A DNA stretch of 64,000 nucleotides from Selenomonas sp. oral taxon 920 (lineage in GTDB: Bacteria > Bacillota > Negativicutes > Selenomonadales > Selenomonadaceae). Each line of letters begins with the position of its first letter. Position 1 is the first letter of the stretch. The notes below the pieces were generated by a model. That model saw only the letters and a program-made list of their open reading frames with translations. It made no database searches and was not told the origin of the DNA. This document shows positions 2,629-29,771 of this stretch, one piece after another. A program made the translations under genes and the position numbers. The DNA is taken from the NCBI RefSeq assembly GCF_001717585.1, contig NZ_CP017042.1:1573001-1637000 (forward strand), written 5' to 3'.

Positions 2629-2696
2629 TCTGTATTTCTCCTATTGCAACAAATATGCAAAAACGGCGACCGTCCGAGACGCACGCCGTTTGCACA

Positions 2697-2924
2697 TCAG
2701 CCGATCTCGACCGTTGCCCTCTTATTCTCCTTCGTCGCGGCAGCCTTGACAACACTGCGCAGCGCTTTTGCGATGCGCCCCTGCTTGCCGATGACCTTAC
2801 CCATGTCATCCTCTGCCACACGAAGTCTCAATATGATCTCCTGATCATCCTGCGTTTCGTCAACGACGACAGCTTCCGGATGATCGACCAAGGATTTTGC
2901 GATAACCTCGACTATCTCTTTCAC
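2697..2924 (-). CDS. khpA: KH-domain RNA-binding protein KhpA (YlqC)
   Basis: Single KH domain, 75 residues, RNA chaperone of the KhpA family that pairs with KhpB/Jag in cell-division and elongation control. The GxxG-type loop VIGKQGRIAKALRSVVKAAA is typical. The start is GTG at 2924 behind GGAGAG. It sits between rpsP and ylqD in the conserved SRP operon; the 68-base gap to ylqD carries no clear hairpin. Confidence 0.92.
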   Translation of the reverse strand: MKEIVEVIAKSLVDHPEAVVVDETQDDQEIILRLRVAEDDMGKVIGKQGRIAKALRSVVKAAATKENKRATVEIG

Positions 2925-3007
2925 GCCGGTCGTCTCTCCTCATCGCAATACGCACGCCGCGAGAGCTCACCGAAATGGTGGAGTCCCCCGCGCACGCACT
3001 GTATTTG

Positions 3008-3283
3008 TCAGTCCTTCTGACGCTTTGCCTCGGCGAATTTCGCCATCGTACCGTTCTTGCTCAGGAGGTTCCTGACCGTGTCGGTCGGCTGTGCGCCCTT
3101 CTTCATCCAGTCGATTGCCTTCTCCTCGTCAATGCTGACGACAGCGGGCTGCTTCGACGGATCGTAGTTTCCAAGGATCTCGATGAATCGACCGTCACGC
3201 GGTGCACGCGAGTCGGCGACCACAATGCGATAAAAGGGATTCTTCTTCGCACCCATGCGGTTCAAACGAATCTTGACTGCCAT
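3008..3283 (-). CDS. rpsP: 30S ribosomal protein S16
   Basis: Ribosomal protein bS16, 91 residues. The N-terminus [20 protein letters not shown] and the following [22 protein letters not shown] are essentially family consensus. ATG follows AAAGGTGGTG. It lies downstream of ffh with a 39-base gap. Confidence 0.98.
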
Positions 3284-3322
3284 AATTTCACCACCTTTCG
3301 TTGTGTGTTATTTACTGTGTAT

Positions 3323-4699: not shown

Positions 4700-5061
4700 T
4701 CTCCCACCTCCTTCGTATCATCCTGTGATGTGTATTGTTCCAGTTCGTCCGCGATGCGCCGCACATCGGCGGACGCAATCGGTTCTCTGAGTGCACGCAG
4801 CTCTGCACAGATCGCAGTAAGTGCGTGCTCCTGCGCCTGTTGACGCGCGAGGAGTCCGAGTGTCTCCTCCATCTCCGTGAGCGCACGCTCTGCGCGGCGA
4901 ATATTGTCATGCGCCGCCTGCCGCGTGATGCCCAGCTCCTCGCCGATCTCCGCGAGGGAAAAGTCCTCTGCGATGTGCAGACGCAGACACTCGCGCTGCT
5001 TTCCCGTGAGAAGTCCTCCATAGAGGTCATACAGCCGTGCGAGCTCGTAAAGTCGCTCCAT
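4696..5061 (-). CDS. ylxM: UPF0122 / YlxM-family SRP-operon DNA-binding protein
   Basis: Small sigma-70 region-4-like helix-turn-helix protein encoded ahead of ffh in Firmicutes and implicated in SRP function. The start MERLYELARLYDLYGGLLT and the HTH stretch LAEIGEELGITRQAAHDNI are family consensus. The start at 5061 is preferred over an upstream GTG because AGGTG precedes it at good spacing. It is the first gene of the operon and overlaps ffh by four bases. The C-terminal third is variable and acidic. Confidence 0.93.
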   Translation of the reverse strand: MERLYELARLYDLYGGLLTGKQRECLRLHIAEDFSLAEIGEELGITRQAAHDNIRRAERALTEMEETLGLLARQQAQEHALTAICAELRALREPIASADVRRIADELEQYTSQDDTKEVGE

Positions 5062-5091
5062 GCACATCACCTGTTTCTAAACACTGGTGGA

Positions 5092-5120
5092 ATTATAGCG
5101 ACAAACGAAGAGCCTGTCAA
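5092..5120 (-). promoter_or_regulatory. Promoter of ylxM-ffh operon, -35 inside terminator arm
   Basis: On the minus strand: -35 TTGACA at 5120-5115, a 17-base spacer, -10 TATAAT at 5097-5092. The consensus match is nearly perfect. The -35 hexamer is part of the 3' arm of the terminator hairpin of the upstream gene, so termination and initiation share DNA. Confidence 0.85.
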
Positions 5121-5142
5121 GTATTTTTCTTGACAGGCTCTT
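5108..5142 (-). terminator. Terminator-like hairpin between the DUF438 gene and ylxM
   Basis: Perfect 14-bp stem AAGAGCCTGTCAAG/CTTGACAGGCTCTT with a 7-base loop. It lies between the end of the DUF438 gene (5155) and the ylxM start, and overlaps the ylxM promoter. Confidence 0.8.
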
Positions 5143-5154
5143 TTATCTTGTCTC

Positions 5155-6600
5155 TTAGCGACGGAATTTTTCCAGCGGCTCTGCGTGGTCGGTCACGAAC
5201 TCGACCGTGCCGATGTACGCGCCCGCCGCATCGTACATTGCCTGATAGTGCACGCGGATCGGACGCTCGCGGATGTAGCGGTGCACGATCATCTGCGTGC
5301 GCTTCTTCGCCTTGAAGTCCGCGATCAGATTCCGCACCACGGGGATGATCTCGGGCGGGTGGCAGTTCATCACGTCGCGCCCGAGTGCGGACAGCGGACG
5401 CGTGAACACCTGCCCCTCGTTTGTGAAGAAGCGGACGACATCATCCTTGTCGATAAACGTGATATCCACGGGCAGCAGCTGAAGAATCGTTGTCAGCTGC
5501 TCCATCGAGAGCTCACCGGTCGGAAACTGGAGCTTCCCGCCCACCTGAGACTGTGCGAGACGCGCTGCCTCCTGATCGAGCCACGGCTGCGCCTCTGCCC
5601 ACGCGGGAATCGGAACGCCGAACGAGATGCCCATGTCCGGCAGATCGTGATAGCAGCGATACCATTCCATCTGCGTGAAATAGCGCAGGCTGAGCGGGAA
5701 GAGAATCTTCTCCTCCTTAAAGATCATTTCACGTACGCGCTGCGTGAGTGCACGGATCCGTGCCTCATACATGGGCAGCGTCTCTTCGTCCGCCTTGAGC
5801 GCCTTGATAATCATGGCGAGCTCGCGCTTCATCTCATCGTCGATGCCCCACATGACCTGCGAGGGTCCCGTGACACCGTAATCGTAGAGAATCGGCATCA
5901 GCAGTTCTTCCTTCTTGATGTAGTGGGAGCGCACATCACCGAGCGCGAGAATGTGCTGGAGCATGACATCCGTACGCTTTGCGCCGTCCAGTTCGCCCTC
6001 AATCGTGTCGAGCAGCGCGTCGAGTGCCGCATTCTCCGCACGCAGGATCGTGAGCGGATGCCCCTCGGGCAGCGCGTCGATGTCGTCGGGATTCACCGAT
6101 GCCGCCTGTGCGTGAATCTCGTCATGCGAGAGCGCCCCCGGCGGCGGTTCGCTCGCCACGCCGTGAAAGAGCGCCGAATGCACATCGCAGAGACGCTGCA
6201 CCTCACTGACAGGCATGCCCTCCTTGATGAGGGTCTGCTCCGCCGTCATGATCTCCTGTGCGTCAACGTGACTGAACTCCTCCACGAAGTCCTTGCGGAC
6301 GGAGTCGAGATCCTCACCACCCGACAGGCGTTCGATGAAGTTCCGAATGCGCCCCTGCCGCGACTGCGCATCATCACTGATGACCTGATATCCACGCTCC
6401 TCGAACGCCGCGATGACCTTCGAGAGCTCGATCCCCTTCACCGCCGCGCCGCGCGGAATTGTCATGATACGCCCCATCACATTCAGTGCGACGGGATTTG
6501 TAATCTCCTTAAAGCCGATCCCCGCCATGATCTCACTGACTTCGGGATTCTCCTCCACCAACTCGGCGACCGTCTTTTTCAGATCCAGTATCTTCTCCAT
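5155..6600 (-). CDS. DUF1858/DUF438 hemerythrin-like PAS protein
   Basis: A 481-residue cytosolic protein. An N-terminal DUF1858-like segment (EKILDLKKTVAELVEENPEV) is followed by a DUF438 region (near 70-140, FIERLSGGEDLDSVRKDF), a hemerythrin-like HHE helical domain (near 150-330; EGHPLTILRAEN, then HYIKKEELLMPIL and EEKILFPLSLRYF), and a C-terminal PAS domain (near 365-475, LLPVDITFIDKDDVVRFF). Family members are thought to sense or handle NO, O2 or a metal centre; the ligand here is unknown. Start M at 6600 follows AAAGGAGC; an earlier in-frame start lacks a site. It is monocistronic, bounded by terminators on both sides. Confidence 0.85.
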   Translation of the reverse strand: MEKILDLKKTVAELVEENPEVSEIMAGIGFKEITNPVALNVMGRIMTIPRGAAVKGIELSKVIAAFEERGYQVISDDAQSRQGRIRNFIERLSGGEDLDSVRKDFVEEFSHVDAQEIMTAEQTLIKEGMPVSEVQRLCDVHSALFHGVASEPPPGALSHDEIHAQAASVNPDDIDALPEGHPLTILRAENAALDALLDTIEGELDGAKRTDVMLQHILALGDVRSHYIKKEELLMPILYDYGVTGPSQVMWGIDDEMKRELAMIIKALKADEETLPMYEARIRALTQRVREMIFKEEKILFPLSLRYFTQMEWYRCYHDLPDMGISFGVPIPAWAEAQPWLDQEAARLAQSQVGGKLQFPTGELSMEQLTTILQLLPVDITFIDKDDVVRFFTNEGQVFTRPLSALGRDVMNCHPPEIIPVVRNLIADFKAKKRTQMIVHRYIRERPIRVHYQAMYDAAGAYIGTVEFVTDHAEPLEKFRR

Positions 6601-6706
6601 CGTCAAAGCTCCTTTATATATCAAATGCTCTTTGTCATCTCTGTGTGACGATTATAACGCAGGTCAGTGAAGAAAGGCTGTAACCTTTGGTACGAAACAA
6701 AGAAAA

Positions 6707-6730
6707 AGACTGCCCCGAAAAGAGCAGTCT
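6707..6730 (-). terminator. Terminator of clpB
   Basis: AGACTGC/GCAGTCT stem with a 10-base loop, followed on the minus strand by TTTTTC. It lies just after the clpB stop codon. Confidence 0.8.
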
Positions 6731-6738
6731 CAAGATAT

Positions 6739-9312
6739 TTAGAGGGTCTTAAACGTAAACTCCGTTCCGTCGAAGCCAAGCTCCACAGTGTCACCACCGC
6801 GCACCGCGCCCGCAATAATCTTCTTCGAGAGCGAGGTCTCGACTGTGTGCGTCAGCAATCGACGCAGCGGACGCGCGCCGAAGTCGGGGTCGAAGCCCTC
6901 GTCCGCAAGTGCCGTAATCGCCGCATCGTCCCACGTCAGCTGAATATCCGCCTGACGCTCAAGACGCTTGCTGAGCGCCGCGAGCATGATTGCCGCGATG
7001 CGCTTCACATCGTCCTTCGTGAGCGCCTTGAACACGATCGTATCGTCCACGCGGTTCAGGAACTCGGGACGGAAATACTCCTTGAGCAGTGCGCGCACCG
7101 CTGTCTCCGCCTCCGCATAGTCCTTGCTCAGGATCTCGTGCGAGCCGAGATTGCTCGTCATGATGATGACGGTGTTCTTGAAGTTCACGACGCGCCCCTT
7201 GCCGTCCGTCAGACGCCCATCGTCGAGAATCTGCAGCAGCACGTTGAACACGTCGCGATGTGCCTTCTCAATCTCGTCGAGCAGGATCACGCTGTACGGG
7301 CGGCGGCGCACCGCTTCCGTCAGCTGCCCGCCCTCATCATAGCCGACATAGCCCGGAGGCGCGCCGATGAGACGCGAGACGCTGTGCTTCTCCATGTACT
7401 CGCTCATGTCAATGCGGATCATGCTCCGCTCATCGTCAAAGAGCGATTCGGCAAGGGTCTTTGCAAGCTCGGTCTTGCCCACGCCCGTGGGACCGAGGAA
7501 GATAAACGAGCCGATCGGACGGTTCGGATCCTTGATGCCCGCACGCGCACGCAGGATTGCCTCACTGACGGCGGTCACCGCCTCGTCCTGTCCGACAACG
7601 CGCTCGTGCAGCACCTCCTCAAGGCGGAGCAGCTTCTCGCGTTCGCCCGTCATCATCTTTGTCACGGGGATGCCCGTCCAACGGCTGACAACACGCGCGA
7701 TGTCCTCCTCACCGACCTCCTCCTTGAGCATCCGCTCACCGTCCGCCTTCGCGGCAATCGCCGCCTCCTCTTCCGCGAGCTTCTTCTCGAGTTCCGGCAT
7801 TTTGCCGTATTTCAGCTCCGAGGCGCGTGCGAGGTTCTGGGCACGCTCCGCCGCCTCCATCTCGCCGCGCAGCTCATCCATCTCCTTCTTGATGGCACGC
7901 ACGCGCAGGATCGCCTGCGTCTCACTCTCCCATTTTGCTTGGAGTTTCGCTTCCTCGGCGTGCAGCTGCTCCTTCTCTGCAACAAGAGCGGCGAGTTTTT
8001 CCTTCGATGCCTCGTCCGTCTCCTTTTTCAGTGCCTCCTCCTCGATGTCGAGCTGGAGGATCTTGCGCCGAATCTCGTCGAGCGGTGCGGGCATGGACTC
8101 GATCTCCGTGCGCAGCTTTGCCGCCGCCTCGTCGACGAGGTCGATTGCCTTGTCCGGCAAGAAACGGTCGGAGATGTAGCGATCGGAGAGCGTCGCCGCC
8201 GCGACAAGTGCTGCATCGCGGATACGCACACCGTGATGCACCTCGTAACGCTCCTTCAGCCCACGCAGAATCGAGATCGTATCCTCCACGCTCGGCTCAC
8301 CGACCATGACGGGCTGGAAGCGTCGTTCGAGCGCCGTGTCCTTCTCGATGTACTTGCGGTACTCGTTCAGCGTTGTCGCACCGATGCAGCGCAGTTCACC
8401 GCGTGCGAGGAGGGGCTTCAACAGGTTGCCCGCATCCATCGCGCCCTCGGCTGCGCCCGCACCGACGACCGTATGCACCTCGTCGATGAAGAGCAGTATC
8501 TGCCCCTCGGACTTTGCGATCTCATTGAGCACACCCTTGAGTCGTTCCTCGAACTCACCGCGAAATTTCGCTCCCGCGACAAGTGCGCCCATGTCGAGCG
8601 AGTAGAGCGTCTTGTTCTTCAGCGACTCGGGCACATCCCCCGCCACGATGCGGCGGGCAAGCCCCTCGACAATCGCCGTCTTGCCGACACCCGGCTCACC
8701 GATGAGCACAGGGTTGTTCTTCGTACGGCGCGAGAGAATTTCAATCGAGCGGCGAATCTCCTCGTCGCGCCCGATCACGGGGTCGAGCTTGTTCGCACGC
8801 GCCGCCGCTGTCAGGTCACGCCCGTATTTCTCAAGCGATTGGTACCCCTCCTCGGGGTTGTCGCTCGTGACGTTCTGCTTGCGATGTTTCTGGATCGCGT
8901 CCTGCACGGCACTCTTCGTCAGCCGGAACTCGCGCGCAATCGCCTGCACCTCGTCGCTCCCGTCCGTAACGAGTGCGAGCAGCAGATGCTCGGTCGAGAC
9001 GTATTCGTCCTTCATCGACTTCGCCAGTTCCTCAGCACGCCCGAGCACGCGCACCATATCCATCCCCATGCCGAGACGATTCGTCCCGCGCACGCTTGGA
9101 ATGGAAGCAAGCTCCTTTTCGAGCCGTGCCTTGAGCAGAGGCAGATCAACACCGCAGACATCAAAGATGGTTGCGAGCAGTCCCTCCGGCTCCTTCGCGA
9201 GTGCGAGCAGCACATGTGTTGATGTAATTTCCTGATGGTAGCGCATCGCCGCGATCTGTTGTGCCGACTGCAGTGCCGCAAGCGTACGCGCTGTGTATTT
9301 ATCCTGTTCCAT
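6739..9312 (-). CDS. clpB: ATP-dependent disaggregase ClpB
   Basis: AAA+ hexameric disaggregase that works with DnaK. At 857 residues it has full length. Features in order: N domain ([15 protein letters not shown]); first AAA+ module with Walker [16 protein letters not shown] and Walker [10 protein letters not shown]; the long M-domain coiled coil (about residues 400-530), which separates ClpB from ClpC/ClpE; and second AAA+ with [12 protein letters not shown] and [10 protein letters not shown]. The start at 9312 follows GGAGGAATGCATT; a Met 6 codons upstream would overlap this site. The promoter lies in a large inverted repeat, suggesting stress control. Confidence 0.97.
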
Positions 9313-9352
9313 AATGCATTCCTCCGCCATTCATTTTGATGTTCTTGAATCC

Positions 9353-9380
9353 ATTATAACAGATAAGGTCAAAAAGTCAA
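9353..9380 (-). promoter_or_regulatory. clpB promoter
   Basis: On the minus strand: -35 TTGACT at 9380-9375, a 16-base spacer, -10 TATAAT at 9358-9353. The -35 hexamer lies inside the promoter-proximal arm of the inverted repeat at 9365-9405. Confidence 0.8.
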
Positions 9381-9405
9381 ATGTTTTCTTTGATTTTTTG
9401 ACCTT
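9365..9405. promoter_or_regulatory. Large dyad overlapping clpB promoter, candidate heat-shock operator
   Basis: Two 17-base arms, left AAGGTCAAAAAGTCAAA and right the complement of AAGGTCAAAAAATCAAA, match at 16 of 17 positions across a 7-base spacer. Each arm carries two GTCAAA-like units, reminiscent of CtsR half-sites. CtsR boxes, however, space two direct heptads by 3 bases; here the direct spacing is 1 and the arms are inverted. A repressor bound here would cover the -35. CtsR or another regulator is inference. Confidence 0.55.
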
Positions 9406-9417
9406 TATTTTTTAGAA

Positions 9418-9446
9418 GAGGCTCTGCCTTCGTTGAACAGAGCCTC
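9418..9446 (-). terminator. Hairpin after glutamine synthetase gene
   Basis: GAGGCTCTG/CAGAGCCTC, a 9-bp stem with an 11-base loop just after the stop at 9453. The following minus-strand bases are TTCT then A-rich, so the U tract is weak. Confidence 0.6.
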
Positions 9447-9452
9447 ATACAT

Positions 9453-11342
9453 TCAGATCATATTCTTTTTATAGCACTCATAGAGCCCTTTGAGCTCCTC
9501 CATCTTCGCGTACATCTCAAGCTGCAGCGCGGATGCCGTCGGATAGTCCCCCTCATTGAGTGCCTTGATGAGCAGCGTAAAGAGAGCCTTGTCGTCGATT
9601 GTGTCCTTTGCGAGGTAGATGCGCAAGTCGTGGATCTTGTTCCACATATAGGCGTCCTGATCCGTCACAAAGTCACTCTTGATCTCCGTCATGCGGCGGA
9701 CGATGTTGCGGTTCTCCGGAATGATGCGGCTGATGAGCTCGATCTTCCAGCGCAGGAGTGCTCCCGTGCGGAACGAATCGATGATCTGCGGTCGGAGCGT
9801 ATTCGCCTGTGTGAGCACTGCCACCTTCTCTGGGTAGAGATCGAAGCCGAGCATATTCTCCCAGACCGTCGCGGGCGGCTTTCCGAAACGCGCGTCGCGC
9901 TCATCCGCCGTATAGTGTTCGAATACGTCCTCCTCGCTCCGATAGGCGCGGTCGGTTTCGAGGTAGAGCCCCTTCTCCCCCGGCTGCTTCGACAGCTCCG
10001 CGAGCAGTTCCGTCGTACTGCGTCCCGCCGTATGCTTGATGCCGTCGAAAATCGCAAGATAGGAGGCAGCTATGACAAGGTAGGTGTTCGAGTAGGGATT
10101 GGTCGCGCGCAGCTCGAAGCGCGTCGCGAGCGGATTTTTGAGGTCACGGATAAGGCTCACAAGCACCGTGCGGTTGCGCGACGGGATCGCGGGCGACGCG
10201 CCGAACGAGGTAACGACGCAGACCGGAGCCTCAAAGCCCGGCTTCAGACGGTTGAACGCGTCGTTTGTCGCCGAGACAAACGGGTTGATCGCCTCGTAGT
10301 TTTTGAGCAGGCCCATGAGTGCGCCGTAGCCGACTGCATTCATATAGTCCGCATTCTGATCGTCGGCGGCAAAGAGGCTGTGACGCTTGCCGTCCTTCGT
10401 GATCGCGGCAAGACTCAGATGCGTATGCTCGCCGTTGCCCGCGAGCCCGATCAGCGGCTTCGCCTTGAAGTTGACTTCGAGGCCGTAGAGACGGAATATC
10501 TCACGGACAAACGTGCGCACGAACAGCTCATTGTCCGCCGCCTGCACGGCACTGTCATACTGCCAGTCAATCTCGATCTGCTCGCAGACATGCGTCATGC
10601 GGCCGCTCTCATCGATCTGCGCCTTGAGCCCGCCGACCTCCTTGTGTCCCATCTCCATGTGGAAGCCGTATTTGTCAAGTTGGATGAGGCAGTCCTCAAG
10701 TGCCGTGCGAACCGCGCCGTGCGTGCGCTCCCAATACTGCTCGTTCATCACCTGCGAGGCGGACATCTCCTCAATGGATGCGTTGTCGTCGAGCGGTGTC
10801 TTGACCCAGAACTCGAGCTCCGTCGCCGACGTGAACGCGATATCCACGATGTCCGCACCATTCAGAGAGGGCGCACCCGAGATCTTCGGATTGGCGTGGA
10901 AGAAGTCGAGAAGTTCCTTTTTCACATAGGCGAGCGTATCCACGAGCACGGCACGCGAGTCGACACGCTTCTCCTCGTGTATGATGAACGAGGGAATGCG
11001 CAGCGTCCCAATCGGCAGCCCCGTCTCTTCATCCGCCCCCTCGGGATCGTAGTCCACGAACCAGTTGACTGCGGGATCAATCGGAAGATCCACCTTCGCA
11101 TTGTTGATCGTCGCGATCTTCGGCAGAACGACAGAGGAGCCGTCCGTCTGGACAGCGGTCCCGTTGTAGAATTTCTCAATGTCTTCAATGAAGATCCGTA
11201 CGGGAATCTTTTCATCGGTATCGTTGCCCGCCATGTCGATGCCGACGAGCGATACGAAGCGCACTTCGGGATGCGCCTTGAGCTGACGAATCACCTCTTC
11301 ACGCGGCGTATTGGCAGGAATTTTATAGAGAAGCTCGTTCAT
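9453..11342 (-). CDS. Glutamine synthetase, long form
   Basis: Glutamine synthetase catalytic family, 629 residues, much longer than GSI (about 440-470). Recognisable GS elements are SATELEFW (metal ligands), NGEHTHLSLA (the His-loop equivalent), PAIPSRNRTVLVSLIRD (ATP/glutamate site region) and FELRATNPYSNTYLVIAA. About 200 extra C-terminal residues (from TELLAEL to the end) are helical and rich in Arg/Glu. ATG at 11342 is preceded by AAAGGTGGT; the 41 upstream in-frame codons have no site. It likely makes glutamine from glutamate and ammonia, but the exact GS class is not assigned. Monocistronic. Confidence 0.85.
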   Translation of the reverse strand: MNELLYKIPANTPREEVIRQLKAHPEVRFVSLVGIDMAGNDTDEKIPVRIFIEDIEKFYNGTAVQTDGSSVVLPKIATINNAKVDLPIDPAVNWFVDYDPEGADEETGLPIGTLRIPSFIIHEEKRVDSRAVLVDTLAYVKKELLDFFHANPKISGAPSLNGADIVDIAFTSATELEFWVKTPLDDNASIEEMSASQVMNEQYWERTHGAVRTALEDCLIQLDKYGFHMEMGHKEVGGLKAQIDESGRMTHVCEQIEIDWQYDSAVQAADNELFVRTFVREIFRLYGLEVNFKAKPLIGLAGNGEHTHLSLAAITKDGKRHSLFAADDQNADYMNAVGYGALMGLLKNYEAINPFVSATNDAFNRLKPGFEAPVCVVTSFGASPAIPSRNRTVLVSLIRDLKNPLATRFELRATNPYSNTYLVIAASYLAIFDGIKHTAGRSTTELLAELSKQPGEKGLYLETDRAYRSEEDVFEHYTADERDARFGKPPATVWENMLGFDLYPEKVAVLTQANTLRPQIIDSFRTGALLRWKIELISRIIPENRNIVRRMTEIKSDFVTDQDAYMWNKIHDLRIYLAKDTIDDKALFTLLIKALNEGDYPTASALQLEMYAKMEELKGLYECYKKNMI

Positions 11343-11719
11343 CTTTGCGTACCACCTTTTTCCAAAAGAACACCGAACAGATCCCTGTCCGCACGGCAAA
11401 ACCACACGCGCCCATCTTACCATTTTTCGGAGGTCGTTGTAAAGATATTGAGAAGAAGTATTCATTTCCTTAATTTTGTACGCATTGACGGCGATTCCCT
11501 ATACACATAGAATATAGGAAGCACTGATAAATTCAGCACCATCATCTTGACGCATCTTTTTTGCCCGCACTTCGTCGGCAAATCCTCCACATAGCTTTGG
11601 CTATGCGTCCGGTTTGCCTCCTTGTTCGGACGAAAAAATCTACGCCAATCTGACGGACTTCATTTTATCAGCGATTCCTATAGAAAGACATACATAATAA
11701 AGAGAGAGAAGAAGATGCC
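11343..11719. other. Intergenic region between two divergent genes, contains a MITE
   Basis: A 377-base gap. The left part upstream of the glutamine synthetase has a weak minus-strand promoter candidate (TTTACA, 18 bases, TAAGAT). The centre and right are filled by the 170-base inverted-repeat element at 11513-11682. No coding sequence is supported. Confidence 0.6.
11513..11682. repeat. MITE-like element, copy A
   Basis: 170-base element with near-perfect 19-base terminal inverted repeats: TATAGGAAGCACTGATAAA on the left, and TATAGGAATCGCTGATAAA as the complement of the right end. The centre carries a conserved hairpin, CATAGC-TTTG-GCTATG, inside AAATCCTCCA...GGTTTG. No open frame of useful length is present. 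A second copy is at 30713-30873 and a solo left end at 12309-12342. The end TATA may include a TA target duplication. Confidence 0.8.
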
Positions 11720-12307
11720 GTGAAAAGCAAGCTGAATGTAGATTGGACATGGATTCGCTCACACCTGCCGAAAGAATTTGCAGATCGGGACATAGACAGT
11801 TTTGGCGGCTATTACTTAGACGGCAGGAACGTCATGTCGGAGGGTGAGCGCGGCGAGCCGGACACACTGGAGTACGCGGCACGCGACGAGGAGGATCTTC
11901 GACTGTGGCAGTTTGATCACGTTTGTGAGCTGCTCGGCTATGCGTTGGAACTGGAACACCGTACAGAAAATGCAAAAAAATGGCGCTATGTAAGAGTACG
12001 CGCCGAAAACGGAAAATGGCTCTATGCAGAGCGAAGGTCGTATGTCTATAACGCCATTGAGGATACGCGGCTCGCCGCATTTGAACTGTATCTTCGTCTG
12101 ATCCGACCTGTCTTTTCACCGGAGCACTTTGAGGAGCGCGTACAGGCACACGTTAGACTGATGAATCGCTGGTACCGTACGCCGCATTGGGACTTTGACC
12201 GAAATGCACTCTGCTTTGTCGAGGTCAGCGATGCAAAGGAATATGCCGGCGATGCAGATAACTCGGAAGAGCCGCGGGCAGGGTCAGTTATACAAATGCT
12301 GGGTTAA
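11720..12307 (+). CDS. Conserved hypothetical protein, 195 aa
   Basis: I do not recognise this protein. It is soluble, with no signal or membrane segment, is acidic, and is unusually rich in Trp and Tyr (WTWIRSHLP, KWRYVRVRAENGKWLYAE, RWYRTPHWDF). The layout suggests an alpha+beta fold of the size seen in immunity-type proteins, but that is only an impression. The start is GTG at 11720 after a purine-rich GAGAGAAGAAG. It is the first plus-strand gene after the MITE and is followed, after a MITE-like solo end, by a DUF4153 membrane protein. Lower GC and AT-rich flanks suggest an accessory gene. Confidence 0.7.
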   Translation: MKSKLNVDWTWIRSHLPKEFADRDIDSFGGYYLDGRNVMSEGERGEPDTLEYAARDEEDLRLWQFDHVCELLGYALELEHRTENAKKWRYVRVRAENGKWLYAERRSYVYNAIEDTRLAAFELYLRLIRPVFSPEHFEERVQAHVRLMNRWYRTPHWDFDRNALCFVEVSDAKEYAGDADNSEEPRAGSVIQMLG

Positions 12308-12308
12308 A

Positions 12309-12342
12309 GGAGCACTGATAAATTCAGTAATTCCTTGACGCA
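12309..12342 (+). repeat. Solo left end of the MITE family
   Basis: GGAGCACTGATAAATTCAG followed shortly by TTGACGCA matches the left end of copy A (GGAAGCACTGATAAATTCAG, then TTGACGCATC) with about 7 bases missing between. No right end is found before the next gene, so this is a truncated copy lying only a few bases from the stop of the 195-aa gene. Confidence 0.6.
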
Positions 12343-12375
12343 AACGAATACCAATGCACAGAGAGGATGATGGCT

Positions 12376-13992
12376 ATGAATATCACCATACGCATATTGC
12401 AGCTGAAGGGGCGGGCGCATGAACTCATCCGCCGTTTCCCCGTCGCCGTCTTTTGGCAGGCAGTCCTTTTCCTCGTCGGTGCAGGCATTATCCTGCTGCG
12501 TCCCGATTTGTATGCGGAGGGTTGGCACAGCGACTATTTCGAGCATCTCGTACGCCTCGCCCCCGCCGTCTTCGGCGCATGGATGACGGCGGTCATGTTC
12601 CGCCTCTTCACGGATGTATTTCCCGTGAAAAAATCCTTGCTGCTGCATGCGGCATCGTCTGCCGTTCTGTTCCTCCTCCTTGCCTATGCGTGGTATGGCG
12701 TGGAAAATCCGAGCCGCCATCTGATCGTTGGGACACAGGGCATCTATCTCGCACTCGCCTTCCTCGCACTCTTCCTTCTCGAACGAGCAAACAAAGCCCC
12801 AGGACTTCCCTCCCTCCTCTTTGCCGCTGCCTTTTCCATCGCGACGAGCATCCTGCTCTTTCTCGGACTCATCCTCTGTGTCGCCGCATTCTGGGCACTG
12901 ATCGTCACCGATGCGGACGGATGGCTGCCCGAGACAACCTATCTCTTCTCCGGTCTGATTGCATACGGCGGCTGGGGACTTGCCGCATTCCTCGCCGCAC
13001 TGCCAAGTACGGGCGCACGCTATCAGTTCCCCGCCGCCACGCAGAAGCTGCTCCTCTATCTCTTCTTCCCCGTCTATCTCCTCCTGCTCCTCGTCCTCTA
13101 CCTCTACGTCGGCAAGATTATCGGCGCGGGCGAAATGCCCGTCGGCACGATGAATTGGTACGCTTCGTTCGCGCTCCTCGGTTTCGCCTTTTTCTTCGGC
13201 ACGCTTGCCGCGCAGGAGCGTCTTCCCCTCTTTTCCCGCTTTCTGAAATGGGGGCTTCTCCTCTTCCTCCCCATCCTAGCCATCCAGATCTACGGCGTAT
13301 GGCTCCGCTATGAGGCATACGGGCTGACAACGCTGCGCTACACCTCCATGATCTGTACGTTCTGCGGCATCTATGCGCTTGCCGTCGCCTTCCTTCGACG
13401 AAAGCCCCAGCAAGTATACCTCTGCGCCGCCATCCTCGCGCTCATCTTCAGTCTCACCCCGCTCAACGTCGTCGACGTACCGCTCCGCAGTCAGGAGGCA
13501 CGGCTCACGCAGATCCTTACGGAGAACAATCTCCTGCAGGACGGTCAGGTGATAAAGAGAGATGATCTCCCGCGCAAGACCATTGCAGAGATTGCCGACA
13601 TTGCGCGCTACATTGGTGAGGATGCCTCTCCGCTTGCCGCACAGGTGCTCGCCGCCAATTTCAATACGCACAATGAGACATTTTCTTTCTATGCGAAGAG
13701 CTCTCAGGAACACTCTGTTGCAGGCTACCAAAGGCTCATACCTTTTGATACACACAATATCAACAACGATGGATTCTTGACTCTCCAACGAGAAGACGGA
13801 ACCGAGGTGCGCATTGATCTGAGTCCCTATGGCACTGCCTTAGTCGAATATGGGAAGGAACACAAAACCCTACCGATTATGGATTATGAAACGGATGTTT
13901 ATTTCATTTGCTTTGAGAGTGCCGTCATTGAATGGGGCCGAACCGGCAGCATTCATTGGGTACATGCGTCCGGCTTTGTTCTGATCCGCTGA
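12376..13992 (+). CDS. DUF4153 domain-containing membrane protein
   Basis: Polytopic inner-membrane protein of about 538 residues. There are roughly 11-12 hydrophobic helices between residues 20 and 365, for example FWQAVLFLVGAGIILL, GIYLALAFLALFLL and LLLYLFFPVYLLLLLVLYLY, followed by a soluble C-terminal region of about 170 residues with no clear motif. The pattern KLLLYLFFPVYLLLLLVLYLY and the following short periplasmic loop fit DUF4153. Function is unknown. Three ATGs (12367, 12370, 12376) are in frame; GAGAGG at 12361-12366 is best spaced for 12376. A bidirectional terminator follows. Confidence 0.8.
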   Translation: MNITIRILQLKGRAHELIRRFPVAVFWQAVLFLVGAGIILLRPDLYAEGWHSDYFEHLVRLAPAVFGAWMTAVMFRLFTDVFPVKKSLLLHAASSAVLFLLLAYAWYGVENPSRHLIVGTQGIYLALAFLALFLLERANKAPGLPSLLFAAAFSIATSILLFLGLILCVAAFWALIVTDADGWLPETTYLFSGLIAYGGWGLAAFLAALPSTGARYQFPAATQKLLLYLFFPVYLLLLLVLYLYVGKIIGAGEMPVGTMNWYASFALLGFAFFFGTLAAQERLPLFSRFLKWGLLLFLPILAIQIYGVWLRYEAYGLTTLRYTSMICTFCGIYALAVAFLRRKPQQVYLCAAILALIFSLTPLNVVDVPLRSQEARLTQILTENNLLQDGQVIKRDDLPRKTIAEIADIARYIGEDASPLAAQVLAANFNTHNETFSFYAKSSQEHSVAGYQRLIPFDTHNINNDGFLTLQREDGTEVRIDLSPYGTALVEYGKEHKTLPIMDYETDVYFICFESAVIEWGRTGSIHWVHASGFVLIR

Positions 13993-14004
13993 GAATGTAT
14001 GCTA

Positions 14005-14035
14005 AAGAGCGACTGCACTCACTGCGGTCGCTCTT
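14005..14035. terminator. Bidirectional terminator between convergent genes
   Basis: AAGAGCGAC/GTCGCTCTT stem with T-rich flanks on both strands, placed between the DUF4153 gene (plus) and the ABC permease gene (minus). Confidence 0.8.
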
Positions 14036-14042
14036 TTCGTAT

Positions 14043-14789
14043 TTATTGCCGATTCCACGCGCACAGCCGCCGCTCTGTCCAGTCGAGCAGGATGAAGAGC
14101 AGCAGGCCCATCATGCTGAGGACGACGATCCCGGCGTACATATCGAGGTAGTTCACGCGCAGCCATGCATCCATGATGTAGTAGCCGATGCCATACTGGG
14201 TGCCGAATGTCTCCGTAAAGAAGAGTACGGAGATCGCCGTCGCCATCGCCACGCGCACCGCCGTGATAAACTTCGGCAGCGAGGCGGGCACGATGATATG
14301 GCGCACGATCTGCGGGAATGCGGCACCGAGCACACGCAGCGGCGCGTAAGTCTCAGACGGAATCGCCGCCACGGCATCACGCACGGCGACGACAACTTGA
14401 AAGACAATGATGAGAAATACGAGCAGCAGCTTGCTCGCCTCCCCAACACCAAAGAGCAGCATAGCAACAGGCAGGAGCGCGATCTTTGGCACGGGATAGG
14501 TCAGGTAGAGGGTGGGTGCAAGCAGACGGTTCACGCGTGGGAAATACCCCATCACAATGCCGACGGGATACCCTACGGCAACGGCAGCAAGCAGCCCGAG
14601 CACGATACGCAGAAGGCTGTAGCCCGCGTGAACGGCAATCGTGTCAGGGAATTTCTGCACCAGACGCAAGAGCACCAGCTCAGGCGAAGGGATCACAGGC
14701 ATCTGAAGGAGCTGCGCAACAGCCCACCAGAATGCAAGACACAAGAAAATACCGCATGCAAACATTCGCAGCGAAATCTTTGCCATCAC
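14043..14789 (-). CDS. ABC transporter permease, SsuC/TauC/ThiX-like
   Basis: Inner-membrane permease of the nitrate/sulfonate/taurine family, 248 residues with about six membrane helices. The cytoplasmic EAA loop is visible as YAPLRVLGAAFPQIVRHIIVP. Starts MMAKISLRMFACG and overlaps the ATPase gene by four bases. It pairs with the ATPase upstream; no periplasmic binding protein is encoded next to it. Candidate substrates are aliphatic sulfonates, taurine or a thiamine precursor; the sequence does not decide. Confidence 0.85.
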   Translation of the reverse strand: MMAKISLRMFACGIFLCLAFWWAVAQLLQMPVIPSPELVLLRLVQKFPDTIAVHAGYSLLRIVLGLLAAVAVGYPVGIVMGYFPRVNRLLAPTLYLTYPVPKIALLPVAMLLFGVGEASKLLLVFLIIVFQVVVAVRDAVAAIPSETYAPLRVLGAAFPQIVRHIIVPASLPKFITAVRVAMATAISVLFFTETFGTQYGIGYYIMDAWLRVNYLDMYAGIVVLSMMGLLLFILLDWTERRLCAWNRQ

Positions 14790-15535
14790 ACGCCTCCTCG
14801 CGCGATCTTTGCGCGCAGTTCCTGCCCCATCGCAAAGAACTCCGGCGAGGAGCGATGTGCAAGGTCGCCCGCAAAGGGGTTGTCAATGATCTCTGTGACG
14901 CGTCCCGGTGCGCCCGTCATGACGGCAATCCGCCCTGCAAGCGTCAGTGCCTCCTCCACATAATGTGTCACAAGCACGGTCGTGACAGCGTGTTTTTTCC
15001 AGAGCGAGAGAAAGACCTCCTGCATGGATTCACGCGTAATCGCATCGAGTGCGGAGAACGGCTCATCCATCAGCAGGAGATCGGGTGCGAGCAGAAAGAC
15101 ACGCGCAAGCCCCACGCGCTGCTGCTGTCCGCCCGAGAGCTCACGCGGATAGCGCGTGAGCAGCTCGGACAGCCCAAGATCCAAGACGATCTCATCGAAT
15201 GTGTTCATTTGCTGTGCATTCCATTCTCCCTTGATCTGCACGCCGAGCAGGATGTTTTCGCGGACGGTCTTCCACGCAAGCAGACCGTAGTTCTGCGGCA
15301 GAAAACCGATGCGCAGCGTACGCGGATCGATGAGCGCGCCCTCGCTCGTCACCGTACCCGCCGTCGGACGGATCAGCCCCGCCCCGACGCGCAGCAGCGT
15401 CGACTTGCCGCAGCCCGACGCACCGATGAGTGCAAGCACCGTCCCACGCTCGACGCAGAGCGACGTGTCCGCAACTGCATGCACAGCATCCGTCCCCGTT
15501 CCATAGTCCACGGACACCCCGGAAAAACACAGCAC
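14786..15535 (-). CDS. ABC transporter ATP-binding protein, SsuB/TauB-like
   Basis: Cytoplasmic ATPase, 249 residues. Walker A GASGCGKSTLLRVGAGL, Q loop FLPQNYGLLAWKTV, signature LSGGQQQRVGLARVF, Walker B LLLMDEPFSALDA and a switch His (VTHYVEEAL) are all present. It forms an import complex with the permease gene that follows by overlap. The promoter lies at 15571-15599. The apparent start TGG...AGTG region carries a GATGGGGTGATG-like sequence; the start codon choice is less certain than the rest. Confidence 0.88.
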   Translation of the reverse strand: MLCFSGVSVDYGTGTDAVHAVADTSLCVERGTVLALIGASGCGKSTLLRVGAGLIRPTAGTVTSEGALIDPRTLRIGFLPQNYGLLAWKTVRENILLGVQIKGEWNAQQMNTFDEIVLDLGLSELLTRYPRELSGGQQQRVGLARVFLLAPDLLLMDEPFSALDAITRESMQEVFLSLWKKHAVTTVLVTHYVEEALTLAGRIAVMTGAPGRVTEIIDNPFAGDLAHRSSPEFFAMGQELRAKIARGGV

Positions 15536-25053: not shown

Positions 25054-25082
25054 ATTGTAACAAAAAAACACCCGCTTGACAA
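25054..25082 (-). promoter_or_regulatory. Promoter of cysE-cysS operon, -35 in terminator loop
   Basis: On the minus strand: -35 TTGTCA at 25082-25077, a 17-base spacer, -10 TACAAT at 25059-25054. The -35 falls in the loop, and the spacer in the arm, of the terminator of the preceding gene. No T-box or cysteine leader is visible in the 100 bases before cysE. Confidence 0.75.
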
Positions 25083-25103
25083 ATTTTATCTGCGGGTGTT
25101 TTT
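25063..25103 (-). terminator. Terminator after comFB-like gene
   Basis: AAAAAACACCCGC paired with GCGGGTGTTTTT around a 16-base loop, followed by T-rich DNA on the minus strand. It overlaps the cysE promoter. Confidence 0.82.
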
Positions 25104-25116
25104 GGGTATATGGGGC

Positions 25117-25419
25117 TCAGTTCTCGCGCAGTCCCTCTTCGTTTCGTCCGTGATGCGGCTGTCCGCCGACGATCTGTACCGCACGCATGACCTCGGTCAG
25201 AACCTCCACCTCGTATTGGAGTTCCATGCCCTTGGCACGCTGCAGCACAGAGCCCTTGTGCGTAGAGACATAGCGCGGCGGGAGATTGTTCAGCGCAATC
25301 ATCATCATATCCGTGCGGCAGCGATCGCACATACACACATCCGGATACTGCGGCGCCACACGATTCAGCATGTGCTCCACAGCATCTTCCATATAGTTTT
25401 TGAATGGCAGGTGTTGCAT
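25117..25419 (-). CDS. ComFB-family protein
   Basis: Small soluble protein of the late-competence ComFB family, 100 residues. NYMEDAVEHMLNRVAP, then CMCDRCRTDMMMIALNNLPP and RYVSTHKG match the family core, with two CxxC-spaced cysteines that could hold zinc. Cyanobacterial ComFB proteins have been reported to bind cyclic dinucleotides; whether this one does is unknown. A GTG directly upstream is possible, but AGGAG is better spaced for the ATG at 25419. It begins 27 bases after the Hsp70-like gene, with no terminator between, so the two form an operon. Confidence 0.85.
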   Translation of the reverse strand: MQHLPFKNYMEDAVEHMLNRVAPQYPDVCMCDRCRTDMMMIALNNLPPRYVSTHKGSVLQRAKGMELQYEVEVLTEVMRAVQIVGGQPHHGRNEEGLREN

Positions 25420-25446
25420 CACGACGCTCCTTTCCAGAGCAGCGAA

Positions 25447-28113
25447 TCAGCCCAGACGGACGGTGTAAATCGTTCCCTTGTAAGTCTTTGCCGCAAGGCT
25501 CTTCTCCGAGGCGACCGTGTATTCGATCGTGTTCGGTGACCGCTTGCGGATGTAGACCCCCACCTCATCGTCATCATTCACATCATCTGCGTCGATCATG
25601 CAGCGCACCATGCGCACCTCCGCGGCCTTCATATGGCCTTTCAGCGCACGCGGTTCCTGCGTATAGTAAAGTTCGAACTCATCCTCGTCCGCATACGTGA
25701 AATATGTCCACACACCGTAGTCGACACGCGCATCGATGTCCACCTTGAAGCAGCCGCGCTCGTTCAGACTTCCGAGGAAATACGGGAAGAGAAGCTCGTC
25801 ATGCTCGTCCACATTCTTGTTGATGATCTTGACATCCTTCCCGCCCTTGCGGCAGCGCAGGAGTCCAAACGCCACGCCCGTCTTCCCTGTGCGCAGGCGG
25901 TCGAAGCCATCGTGGAGAATTTTCTTCTCCTTCTCTGCATCCTCCATGCCAAGCGGGAGATAGAGCAGGAACGGTGCATCCTTGCGCTGTGCAGACAACT
26001 TGCCGTTCGCCTCCGGCTTCTTGCCCGCTGCGTCTGACTTCTCGGCAGGACGCTCGGAGGTCATCTGGTGCAGTGCATTGATCTGGCGCGCGATGTACTC
26101 ATCGAAGAGCTTGCGCACCATCGGTGCCTTACATGAGTTGCCCGCGAGAAAGATGTGGATCTGGCGCACATCGCGGCCCTTGAACGCCGTTGCCATCGCC
26201 TGAAAGAAGTTATCGACACCGCGGCGAATGCGAGCCTCGAGCGTGCGCTCGAGCTTCTTCACGTCAATGTGCAGACGAATCTCGGCGCGATTGCCCGCAT
26301 TTCCCGTCTTTTCAGATGAGAAGAGCGTGATCTGCGTATCGAAGCTGTCCCCCGCCGCGAACTCGTCATACCCCTCACGGCGCTCCCAGAAGGGGCGCAG
26401 TCGCTCAGCGAGGATCTTATTGTTGAGATGCGATGCAGCATCACGCGTCTCGCGCACGAGTGCCTCTGCCCCCGCGAACGTCTCGCTCTCGGGCGGCAGA
26501 GCAAATGTGATCTTGTGTTGACGCATCTCCGCAAGATTGTCCTTGAACACCTCATATGCCAGCAGCTCGAGGATGTTCTCGCCGCCGAGATACATGTCGC
26601 TGCCGAAGCCGAACTGCTCGATGACAAACTTGCGGCGTCCGTTCTCCGGCACATACTCTACACCAAAGTCAAAATCCGTCGTGCCGCCGCCGAAGTCAAA
26701 GACGCCGTAGGCAACCTCCTCACCCACACGCTTTGGCTCGAGACCGTATGCCTCAAGCGCGCTGATCGCATACGCCGCCGGTTCGTTGGCACCATCGTAC
26801 ACGCGGAAGCGGCGCATCATCTCGGGATCATCAAGCAGCGCCTTCGGCAGAGTCTTTCGGAGACCGCGCTCGAAGCTCATGCGGATGTGCTCCCGCACGC
26901 TCTTTTCATAGCCCACAGGGAAGGACAGGATGTAGTCCAGGTAGATGTTGCGGTGCATATTGTTAATGTAGAGGCCGAGATAGTACGCATAGATCTCAAT
27001 CGGATCAAAGCCGCCCGCATCGAGCGGCTGCGTTTCCGCATACGGCTTGACCTCCTGAATATAGCCGTGCCTGTCCTTTAGGATCGGAGAGTTCGCCGTG
27101 TCACGCGTCCAACGCTTGAGCTCGCTGAACACGGAGTAGTAGACCGCAATGCCCTCCGTTGACTGCCGCTCAAAGATCGCATCTGCCGCCTGATGGGATG
27201 CCGTCACCTGCGCCCACTCCGTATAGGGACGTCCCTCGCGCGCGCGATAGAGCTGCTTAAACTTCTCGATGTCGATCAGCTCGATCGCCGTCGGATTCTC
27301 GTAATCCTGAATCGTCGGCTCGTTTTCGTAGTCTCCCTTGCCGATGCGCAGGAGACGCGCCTCGCGGTCGCGGCAGACGACAACGGTGCTGCGTGTGCCG
27401 AAGTCAATGGCACAGGTGCCGTTCATGATAACATCCATCTGCGGCGGGCGCGCGACGAGGAAGTCCGTCGGCGGCAGGCGCAGACAGACGCTGTCCTCGC
27501 GCCCCTCCTCCGTCAGCTCCTCATAGAGATCCCAGTGCCCGAGGCTCATATCCGTCAGGAGGCGATCGGCATAGGGCTGAATGTTTGCACGCACATGATC
27601 GGTATACAGGAGCGCCTTCTTGAACGGCTCGATGGAAAAATCAAGTGCTACGGAACCCGTGTTGATCGCCGTCTCAATCACGCTTTGAATATCGAAGGTA
27701 ATGCCAAAGATCGTCTCTTTGAATCGTCCTGCCACCACATCCTCGGCAAACCGATTGTGATCAAAGAGGAGCTGATCCTCCTCGATGCGGATGTAGGAGC
27801 GGATCTTCGGATACTCCGCCACCAGACGGCGCAGACGCTCCTCCTGCTCGTGCGAGACATCCTCCGCATTGAACTCGTCCGCAATCCACTTCAGAAAGCT
27901 CTGTGCACCACTCTTCTCCGTCGCGAGAGAGAACATATACTTCTTGTTGACAATGGATGCCGTCTCATCCTTCAGCTCCGCAATATCCCTGCCAATCTGC
28001 TCTCCAAAACGGAGCGAACTCTCGTAGAAAAACTGCCGAAACGCATTCTTTTTCAAATGTAAGCTGCGCATGAGCACCGGACGCACCGCTGCCTGCACCT
28101 CTTTTCGCGCCAT
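25447..28113 (-). CDS. Large divergent Hsp70-like ATPase
   Basis: An 888-residue protein of the actin/Hsp70 superfamily. Residues 1-230 are a helical N-terminal region I do not recognise. The ATPase runs from about 232 to 680: phosphate-1 loop AIDFGTRST (235-243), connect-1 NEPAAYAI (443-450; compare NEPTAAAL in DnaK), phosphate-2 loop FDFGGGTTDFDFG (472-484), and adenosine motif IFLAGNSCKAPMV (654-666). An Ala/Lys-rich linker (about 685-712) leads to a C-terminal region of about 175 residues with no DnaK-type peptide-binding signature. The start at 28113 follows GGAGATGAATGA. Function unknown; a chaperone or a cytoskeletal-type role is possible. It is co-directional with the ComFB-like gene. 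Confidence 0.85.
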   Translation of the reverse strand: MARKEVQAAVRPVLMRSLHLKKNAFRQFFYESSLRFGEQIGRDIAELKDETASIVNKKYMFSLATEKSGAQSFLKWIADEFNAEDVSHEQEERLRRLVAEYPKIRSYIRIEEDQLLFDHNRFAEDVVAGRFKETIFGITFDIQSVIETAINTGSVALDFSIEPFKKALLYTDHVRANIQPYADRLLTDMSLGHWDLYEELTEEGREDSVCLRLPPTDFLVARPPQMDVIMNGTCAIDFGTRSTVVVCRDREARLLRIGKGDYENEPTIQDYENPTAIELIDIEKFKQLYRAREGRPYTEWAQVTASHQAADAIFERQSTEGIAVYYSVFSELKRWTRDTANSPILKDRHGYIQEVKPYAETQPLDAGGFDPIEIYAYYLGLYINNMHRNIYLDYILSFPVGYEKSVREHIRMSFERGLRKTLPKALLDDPEMMRRFRVYDGANEPAAYAISALEAYGLEPKRVGEEVAYGVFDFGGGTTDFDFGVEYVPENGRRKFVIEQFGFGSDMYLGGENILELLAYEVFKDNLAEMRQHKITFALPPESETFAGAEALVRETRDAASHLNNKILAERLRPFWERREGYDEFAAGDSFDTQITLFSSEKTGNAGNRAEIRLHIDVKKLERTLEARIRRGVDNFFQAMATAFKGRDVRQIHIFLAGNSCKAPMVRKLFDEYIARQINALHQMTSERPAEKSDAAGKKPEANGKLSAQRKDAPFLLYLPLGMEDAEKEKKILHDGFDRLRTGKTGVAFGLLRCRKGGKDVKIINKNVDEHDELLFPYFLGSLNERGCFKVDIDARVDYGVWTYFTYADEDEFELYYTQEPRALKGHMKAAEVRMVRCMIDADDVNDDDEVGVYIRKRSPNTIEYTVASEKSLAAKTYKGTIYTVRLG

Positions 28114-28205
28114 TCATTCATCTCCTAACGAAAAATAAATTTCCCTTCCTGTTAGTATTCTTCACCATCCATCAAAATCCTTTTTCAGAACGTCCTAATA
28201 AAAAA

Positions 28206-28227
28206 GTCCTGCGGAACCCCGCAGGAC
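28206..28227 (-). terminator. Terminator after tRNA-Arg
   Basis: GTCCTGCGG/CCGCAGGAC, a perfect 9-bp stem with a 4-base loop, followed on the minus strand by TTTTT. Confidence 0.85.
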
Positions 28228-28238
28228 AGATTTTCATA

Positions 28239-28313
28239 TGGTGCGCTCGGCGGGAGTCGAACCCACGCTTTCAGCTCCGGAGGCTAACGTCCTATCCACT
28301 GGACTACGAGCGC
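28239..28313 (-). tRNA. tRNA-Arg (anticodon CCG)
   Basis: Full cloverleaf on the minus strand. Acceptor GCGCTCG pairs with CGAGCGC; the anticodon stem TTAGC/GCTGA encloses loop CTCCGGA, giving anticodon CCG (reads CGG); the T arm is GTGGG-TTCGACT-CCCGC. CCA is encoded. Confidence 0.95.
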
Positions 28314-29078: not shown

Positions 29079-29771
29079 TCAGACACCCGCACGCTCCTGC
29101 AGAGCCGCACGATTGAGGATGTGTATGCGCCCTCGGGAGGTCTGCACCAAGCCCTCCTGACTGAACTCACGGATGAGACGGCTGACGACTTCCCGCGCCG
29201 TCCCGAGATACTGTGCGGTCTCCTCGTGCGTCAGACGGATTTCATCGCTCGCCGTACGTGCGGATTCTGTGAGCAGGAATTTCGCAAGTCTCCGATCTGC
29301 CGATGTAAAGAGCATCTGCTGAAACTTCCAGAGCATCTCCGAAAGGCGCGCAACCGCATACTCATACGCATGGGCACGCACCGCCAGATTGGCGTCAAAG
29401 ATCTCACGCACAGCTTGTGTATCCGAGATAAAGAGCTCCGTCCCCTTCGCTGCCTCAATCGCAATATCACAGGAAACCGCACCGAGAAATGCTGTGCTCG
29501 CAAGGAGCGCAATATCCCCCTCGCGCAGGAGATAAAGCGTAAACTCACGCCCCTCCTCCGAGAGGATATAGACACGCAGAGCGCCGGATATGACGTGCAG
29601 CGTACCTGCACTGGCAAGAGCACCGCGATGAATGATCTCTCCTTTGACCGCACGCTGAAAGCGCGTATGGGCGATGAGATGCTCCCGCTGTGCATCGGCC
29701 AGTGCATTCCACAGCTCGAATCGAGCGATATAATCTTGAAAATGCAAGTCCTTCAAGCCATGTGCCGACAT
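29079..29771 (-). CDS. Crp/Fnr-family transcriptional regulator
   Basis: 230 residues: cyclic-nucleotide-like beta roll at the N-terminus (GEIIHRGALASAGTLHVISGAL and LREGDIALLAST), a dimerisation helix near 120-140, and a C-terminal winged helix (LTHEETAQYLGTAREVVSRL is the recognition unit). It lacks the N-terminal cysteine cluster of FNR, so an Fe-S oxygen sensor is unlikely. The effector is unknown. It lies 36 bases after the flavoprotein gene and may regulate it. Confidence 0.9.
   Translation of the reverse strand: MSAHGLKDLHFQDYIARFELWNALADAQREHLIAHTRFQRAVKGEIIHRGALASAGTLHVISGALRVYILSEEGREFTLYLLREGDIALLASTAFLGAVSCDIAIEAAKGTELFISDTQAVREIFDANLAVRAHAYEYAVARLSEMLWKFQQMLFTSADRRLAKFLLTESARTASDEIRLTHEETAQYLGTAREVVSRLIREFSQEGLVQTSRGRIHILNRAALQERAGV

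Follow-up and report, generated by a model that had tools for sequence, protein, structure and literature searches.

The locus considered here raises the question of what an Hsp70-like ATPase of 888 amino acids (aa) does in an oral bacterium that encodes it directly ahead of a ComFB-family protein. It lies on the minus strand of a 64,000-nucleotide stretch of the Selenomonas sp. oral taxon 920 genome (contig NZ_CP017042.1), termed the window below, and all coordinates are positions within that window. A first-pass annotation of the DNA had reported the two open reading frames (ORFs), 27 bases apart, and both are present. The best explanation, to which we assign a probability of about 0.5, is that the ATPase represents an undescribed family of Hsp70-like ATPases and that the oral gene is an orphaned, vertically kept member of that family.

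A divergent Hsp70-type ATPase

The ATPase gene and its regions are as follows.

25447 to 28113, minus strand: Hsp70-like ATPase gene, 888 aa, ATG start (ORF, alignment and profile comparison)
27421 to 28113, minus strand: N-terminal region, residues 1-231, by alignment; without a segment of about 135 aa (after about residue 57)
25849 to 27420, minus strand: Hsp70-type nucleotide-binding domain, about residues 232-755, by profiles; outer limits from the alignment
25450 to 25848, minus strand: C-terminal region, about residues 756-888; conserved across the ATPase family, beta-rich in a weak model

As a single sequence, the ATPase scores far under the DnaK and HscA cut-offs, reaching E 0.1 with Pfam HSP70 (11.2 bits against a cut-off of 20.6) and E 4.8e-4 with NCBIfam HscA (18.7 bits against 620), both sub-threshold. 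Against Pfam, NCBIfam and PADLOC, the protein does not reach the cut-off of any named family, and none of the known anti-phage models (PADLOC 2023) matches it at E 0.01. A profile built from 40 family rows matches DnaK chains with an E value of 7.4e-8; the match consists of three colinear blocks, and only the middle block is significant by itself. Profile-profile comparison of the same rows with 31 Hsp70 sequences gives a probability of 98% and P 3e-14 over residues 365-678. The actin/Hsp70 nucleotide motifs quoted in the first-pass annotation are present, and D237, G239, T240, E444, D473, G475-G477, D480, G510, E512, G658 and N659 are invariant in 40/40 rows; because these nucleotide-site residues do not vary, the protein is expected to be active as an ATPase. 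The profile evidence bears out its reading as a divergent Hsp70-type ATPase and assigns the family a DnaK-type nucleotide-binding domain. With Hsp70/DnaK (Pfam PF00012) the family thus shares this domain, with its phosphate-1, phosphate-2 and adenosine motifs, as well as a GrpE-like partner encoded beside relatives of the ATPase; it differs in its large N-terminal region, in inserts within the nucleotide-binding domain, in scoring under the curated cut-offs, and in having no detectable substrate domain or lid.

Relatives outside the genus and a GrpE-like partner

Relatives outside the genus are mostly about 1000 aa long and are encoded in multigene operons, often directly behind a coiled-coil gene that we term c1. 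Neighbour maps, drawn with a crude longest-ORF caller, fall into three types named for this analysis. In type A, c1 is accompanied by one ATPase or sometimes two, by a HerA-like ATPase (about 1090 aa) that matches the PADLOC mad8 model at 3.4e-22, and by two unknown genes, with a dynamin-family protein in some cases. Type B comprises c1, the ATPase, a DUF4280/AHH nuclease protein whose AHH domain falls just below cut-off, Imm11 and a VgrG-like protein, in places with a short ordinary Hsp70. Type C comprises ZorA-like and OmpA-like proteins, the ATPase, and radical SAM and double-AAA proteins. The family thus appears to be central to operons of quite different kinds (HerA-, VgrG/nuclease- and ZorA/OmpA-linked). 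The type B operons at L061, L062, L065, L081 and L082, in which the ATPase stands with DUF4280/AHH nuclease, Imm11-type immunity and VgrG-like proteins, suggest a unit for toxin delivery that carries a chaperone pair of its own.

The c1 gene was found in 23 of the 40 fetched regions, and in six examples from types A and B its end lies 3-12 bases ahead of the ATPase ORF. When 18 c1 rows were compared with 10 GrpE sequences, P was 2.3e-9 overall and 3.1e-8 for the last 75 columns; the controls gave 0.006 (best of 60 shuffled tails), 0.083 (best of 60 full shuffles), 0.023 (reversed), 0.0043 (coiled-coil part) and 0.28 (DnaK). The match is the same without the two type C rows, and c1 is partly united by coiled-coil likeness. 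The C-terminal domain of c1 accordingly appears GrpE-like, and in this family a divergent Hsp70 and a GrpE-like protein would form a pair.

Phylogenetic place of the oral ATPase

In a tree of 48 chosen rows, built by a quick method and with long branches for the type C and Acinetobacter rows, the oral clade has a support of 100 and stands beside L049-L054, inside a 24-row clade in which HerA linkage is seen for 11 of the 16 remaining rows. Within the genus itself, 12 of 14 genomes have no match to a HerA-like protein, and two have distant ones elsewhere. For 21 of the 32 outside rows the N-terminal segment measures 131-171 aa, against 11 aa in 8/8 genus rows; it is 6-37 aa long in five outside rows, four of which form a single clade that belongs to none of the three operon types, and six type C rows have 108-116 aa at its position. 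By the tree, N-terminal trimming arose more than once. The 230-aa N-terminal region that the first-pass annotation called unknown is indeed there, but it is a shortened form of the family N-terminus. A lectin-like (DUF1566) identity of the segment was set aside, having given nothing useful at E 5 with 10 segments. A likeness of the ATPase to SrfB was set aside as well, and no SrfB model appeared in a Pfam scan at E 1.

The oral ATPase consequently appears to be a family member that became fixed and orphaned, having lost the segment of about 135 aa together with its operon partners. On these comparisons, the most fitting view is that it descends from Hsp70/GrpE-like machines and has been stripped down while being kept in the core genome.

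The ATPase-comFB unit

Around the ATPase gene, the following further features were recorded.

25117 to 25422, minus strand: comFB, 101 codons from GTG; the ATG at 25419 is the likelier start
25427 to 25435, minus strand: ribosome-binding site of comFB, GGAAAGGAG, strong, read by eye
25061 to 25099, minus strand: terminator-like hairpin after comFB with an 8-bp stem, 16-base loop and T7, found by eye, beyond the loop limit of the hairpin scan
28155 to 28181, minus strand: sigma-H-type promoter element AGGATTT-N11-GAAGAATAC, with one mismatch in the window and exact in 12/14 genus genomes
28206 to 28227, minus strand: terminator-like hairpin after tRNA-Arg, upstream of the ATPase gene, from the hairpin scan
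28239 to 28313, minus strand: tRNA-Arg (CCG), the upstream neighbour in 14/14 genus genomes, by locus comparison

Counted from the ATG at 25419, the gap between the genes is 27 bases, and we infer that they form a two-gene unit flanked by two terminators, in keeping with the operon-like layout proposed earlier. An ATPase ortholog with comFB 23-29 bases behind it is present in 14/14 genus genomes, so that the pair is no peculiarity of one strain; the window's genome has a single copy of the ATPase gene, and one ComFB is encoded in every one of the 14 genomes. Among ten named loci the ATPase is 86-97% identical to the window protein, as conserved as cysS (85-94%), while trxB, a CRP gene and a DUF gene are less conserved (59-81%). 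Median ratios of nonsynonymous to synonymous substitution (dN/dS) over 91 genome pairs, from which 8 (ATPase) and 11 (comFB) pairs with saturated dS were dropped, are 0.045 for the ATPase and 0.072 for comFB and indicate strong purifying selection. At L040 and L042 (named loci), L223 and L224, two species have another right-hand flank past comFB, with tRNA-Lys, and the pair is intact.

More widely, ATPase matches occur in 41 of 151 family-sample genomes (the 14 of the genus and 27 of 137 others, the latter partly distant paralogs) and in 7 of 398 phylum-sample genomes, two of them in the genus; ComFB occurs in 86 of the 151. Four viral-contig scans yielded no ATPase relative and phage records no match, and with each of two queries 2 of 72,556 plasmid records matched.

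Between the tRNA terminator and the ATG, 14/14 genus genomes keep AGGATTT-N11-G(A/C)AGAATA(T/C). The published sigma-H consensus is RNAGGAWWW / RNNGAATWW (PMC8510167), and the core AGGAWWW-N11-RNNGAATWW is matched exactly in 12/14 genomes and with one mismatch in 2/14, the window included. The genome has a SigH gene (362.8 bits against a cut-off of 294.8) and 15 exact sigma-H-type sites, against 0 for the reversed pattern; at 13 of the 15 an ORF of at least 120 codons starts within 300 bases, five of these sites being inside another ORF. Sigma-H may control the ATPase-comFB unit. Among the genes that follow the exact sites (loci L227-L241) are those for HIT, FtsA/PilM-like, DeoR-type and chemotaxis-type proteins and, by eye, glgC and the gene of the main sigma factor. 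A corresponding site in solo relatives was rejected, the best site in six stand-alone genes having two or three mismatches. Six operonic relatives make a poor control, since their 300 upstream bases lie largely in c1; one of the operonic relatives, L061, has a site with one mismatch (p 0.095).

ComFB and its possible ligands

Membership of the ComFB family, as first proposed, is certain (Pfam PF10719, E 1.6e-23, 83 bits against a cut-off of 25). The protein matches both solved structures, 4wai (B. subtilis ComFB, 1.5e-5) and 8hja (the cyanobacterial receptor, 0.0039), and keeps ALN-x-LPP-x-Y as in 8hja; it differs from ComFB of Bacillus in scoring below the NCBIfam equivalog cut-off (40.8 bits against 120). 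Its setting differs as well: the comFB genes described in PMC12313861 adjoin comFA/comFC (Bacillus) or hfq (cyanobacteria), whereas the window comFB adjoins the Hsp70-like ATPase gene. The same source reports that Synechocystis ComFB binds cyclic di-AMP (c-di-AMP; dissociation constant, KD, 2.6 uM) and cyclic di-GMP (c-di-GMP). Both ligands may exist in the host, because the genome encodes 7 GGDEF and 1 DAC domains. By analogy, control of the ATPase by ComFB via c-di-AMP or c-di-GMP is plausible.

A CRP-family regulator gene (29079-29771) lies upstream of the locus; at 59-80% identity it evolves faster than the ATPase. According to PMC13075795, ligand-free CdgR of Anabaena acts in part via the CRP-family factor DevH, and because this ComFB-type protein acts in that way the regulator is a candidate ComFB target. 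A flagellar link of comFB was set aside; its neighbours are, by eye, ABC-transporter genes.

Proposed mechanism and alternatives

We consider the window ATPase, at the even odds stated above, to be an orphaned, vertically kept Hsp70-like ATPase working as an ATP-driven machine rather than as a filament. ATP binding and hydrolysis would drive an Hsp70-like open/closed cycle on a client protein; the cycle would run in sigma-H-active cells (late growth or a competence-like state), and nucleotide exchange would be left to the housekeeping GrpE or be gated by another factor. With less certainty, ComFB, as a cyclic-dinucleotide-binding dimer, might touch the ATPase or its client and so couple the cycle to c-di-AMP/c-di-GMP. 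If ComFB does bind the ATPase, the locus would offer a direct handle on the role of ComFB outside the systems studied so far.

Several observations weigh against this reading. Profile comparison gave no significant match to an Hsp70 substrate-binding domain. Structure models, for which the input was 11 near-identical rows (the window and ten related loci), reached a mean predicted local-distance difference test score (pLDDT) of 35.6 at full length and 49.2 for the C-terminal region, which is weak and beta-rich. For c1, the likeness to GrpE stems from a single profile comparison, made against 10 GrpE sequences, and Pfam gave the name GrpE to none of three c1 representatives; no GrpE-like c1 lies in the window, the rest of the genome not having been searched. 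Of the sister rows L049-L054, three are HerA-linked in the stretch seen and three are not. The window has no exact sigma-H match, and its site with one mismatch, with 0.37 expected, is not notable alone. Outside the genus, among 137 family genomes, ComFB occurs in 3 of 27 ATPase genomes and in 69 of 110 others, and the order of genes is conserved throughout the region.

These last two points bear most directly on the alternative that the ATPase and ComFB are neighbours by history only, joined behind tRNA-Arg in the ancestor of the genus and sharing one transcript while doing separate jobs, which is a credible if less than probable account. The negative co-occurrence outside the genus has a Fisher p of 9e-7, not corrected for kinship, and by tblastn no comFB was found in 64 fetched loci outside the genus set, matches being confined to genus loci; in these loci the two genes were never seen side by side beyond the genus. 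Because of these two results there is, as far as sequence surveys reach, no general ATPase-ComFB partnership. In other genera the neighbours of comFB vary (comFB was found in 9 of 20 surveyed loci). Since neighbouring genes keep their order too (cysE downstream in 12/14 and DUF241 upstream in 13/14 genus genomes), adjacency in 14 genomes is weak proof of joint function. However, where the right flank differs, in two genomes, the breakpoint falls past comFB and leaves the genes together, and both genes are strongly constrained while remaining so closely spaced in 14/14.

It is unlikely that the protein is an ordinary chaperone in which the last 130 aa form a lidless, highly diverged version of the DnaK substrate-binding beta domain. 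The GrpE-like partner of the relatives would suit such a chaperone, as would the beta-rich weak model and residues 778-803, which align weakly at the start of the DnaK beta domain. That alignment is not significant (0.05 to 0.64), however; Foldseek with the weak C-terminal model gave a best match of E 0.18, the single-sequence scores are far below the cut-offs, and as to partners encoded alongside, no GrpE-like gene lies in the window, in a search that did not extend to DnaJ. The earlier statement that the protein has no recognisable substrate-binding domain therefore holds at the level of sequence comparison.

More unlikely still is a cyclic-dinucleotide-gated Hsp70, in which an Hsp70 of a conflict system would have lost its own GrpE-like exchange factor and an N-terminal domain, come under sigma-H and been rewired to ComFB, so that ComFB would adjust the nucleotide cycle of the Hsp70 in response to c-di-AMP or c-di-GMP. 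If true, second messengers would feed into an Hsp70 machine, and ComFB would have a target of the Hsp70 type.

The odds are long against a one-protein remnant of a conflict operon that still serves in defence with ComFB as nucleotide sensor. By gene content the relatives' operons do look like conflict systems, with HerA-like, HEPN, dynamin, nuclease, immunity and ZorA-like proteins beside the ATPase. One is carried on a mobilizable Acinetobacter piscicola plasmid (L154, 6127-20450), where a WYL regulator, a HerA-like protein matching mad8/HerA models at 2.1e-20, unknowns, two ATPases, HEPN and dynamin are followed by an integrase (several of these names are taken from the plasmid annotation); this locus is a candidate for an unnamed defence system. 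Defence genes are typically patchy in distribution, whereas the oral gene is single-copy, occupies the same site in 14/14 genus genomes and equals cysS in conservation; it also fits no PADLOC model and has no effector next to it.

Comparison with described systems gives partial likenesses. Type A shares with MADS and other HerA-type defence ATPases (PADLOC) its neighbour ATPase, which matches the mad8 and HerA models, whereas the window locus has no HerA-type ATPase, and no further mad gene was named among ten proteins scanned. With the GAP1-N2 conflict systems (PMC7159879), the relatives share multigene conflict-type neighbourhoods with HSP70 and GrpE; those systems are built around GAP1 and GTPases and include FNIII proteins, whereas the relatives here occur with HerA-like, VgrG/nuclease or ZorA/OmpA-like proteins, and the oral gene has none of these partners beside it. 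General scans of neighbour proteins named no GAP1, GTPase or FNIII component, no dedicated search having been made. CoCoNuT (PMC11090510) likewise includes Hsp70-like proteins in a restriction-type system, but goes with McrB/McrC, neither of which Pfam named among the cluster representatives scanned, and a CoCoNuT identity was set aside. A PHROGs route was also set aside, with no match for nine of ten proteins and AAA-type matches for the tenth. No literature on such operons was recognised among the search listings, which says nothing beyond those listings.

The first-pass annotation had also entertained a filament system. An actin/MreB/ParM-like filament former, for which the shared actin/Hsp70 fold motifs speak, is barely credible, since the profile matches are DnaK chains among the 60 listed and many relatives of this divergent Hsp70 are encoded directly behind a GrpE-like protein, which favours an exchange cycle and disfavours a filament.

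Stand-alone and distant relatives

Stand-alone relatives without the N-terminal segment occur in genus g12 (L076, L077, L080 and L086), and g12 genomes with an ATPase relative gave no ComFB match. Finally, one oral Selenomonas genome from the genus (L069, about 1743-15023) contains a type C operon in the order ZorA-like, OmpA, unknown, distant Hsp70-like paralog (933 aa), coiled coil, radical SAM, unknown and double AAA protein.

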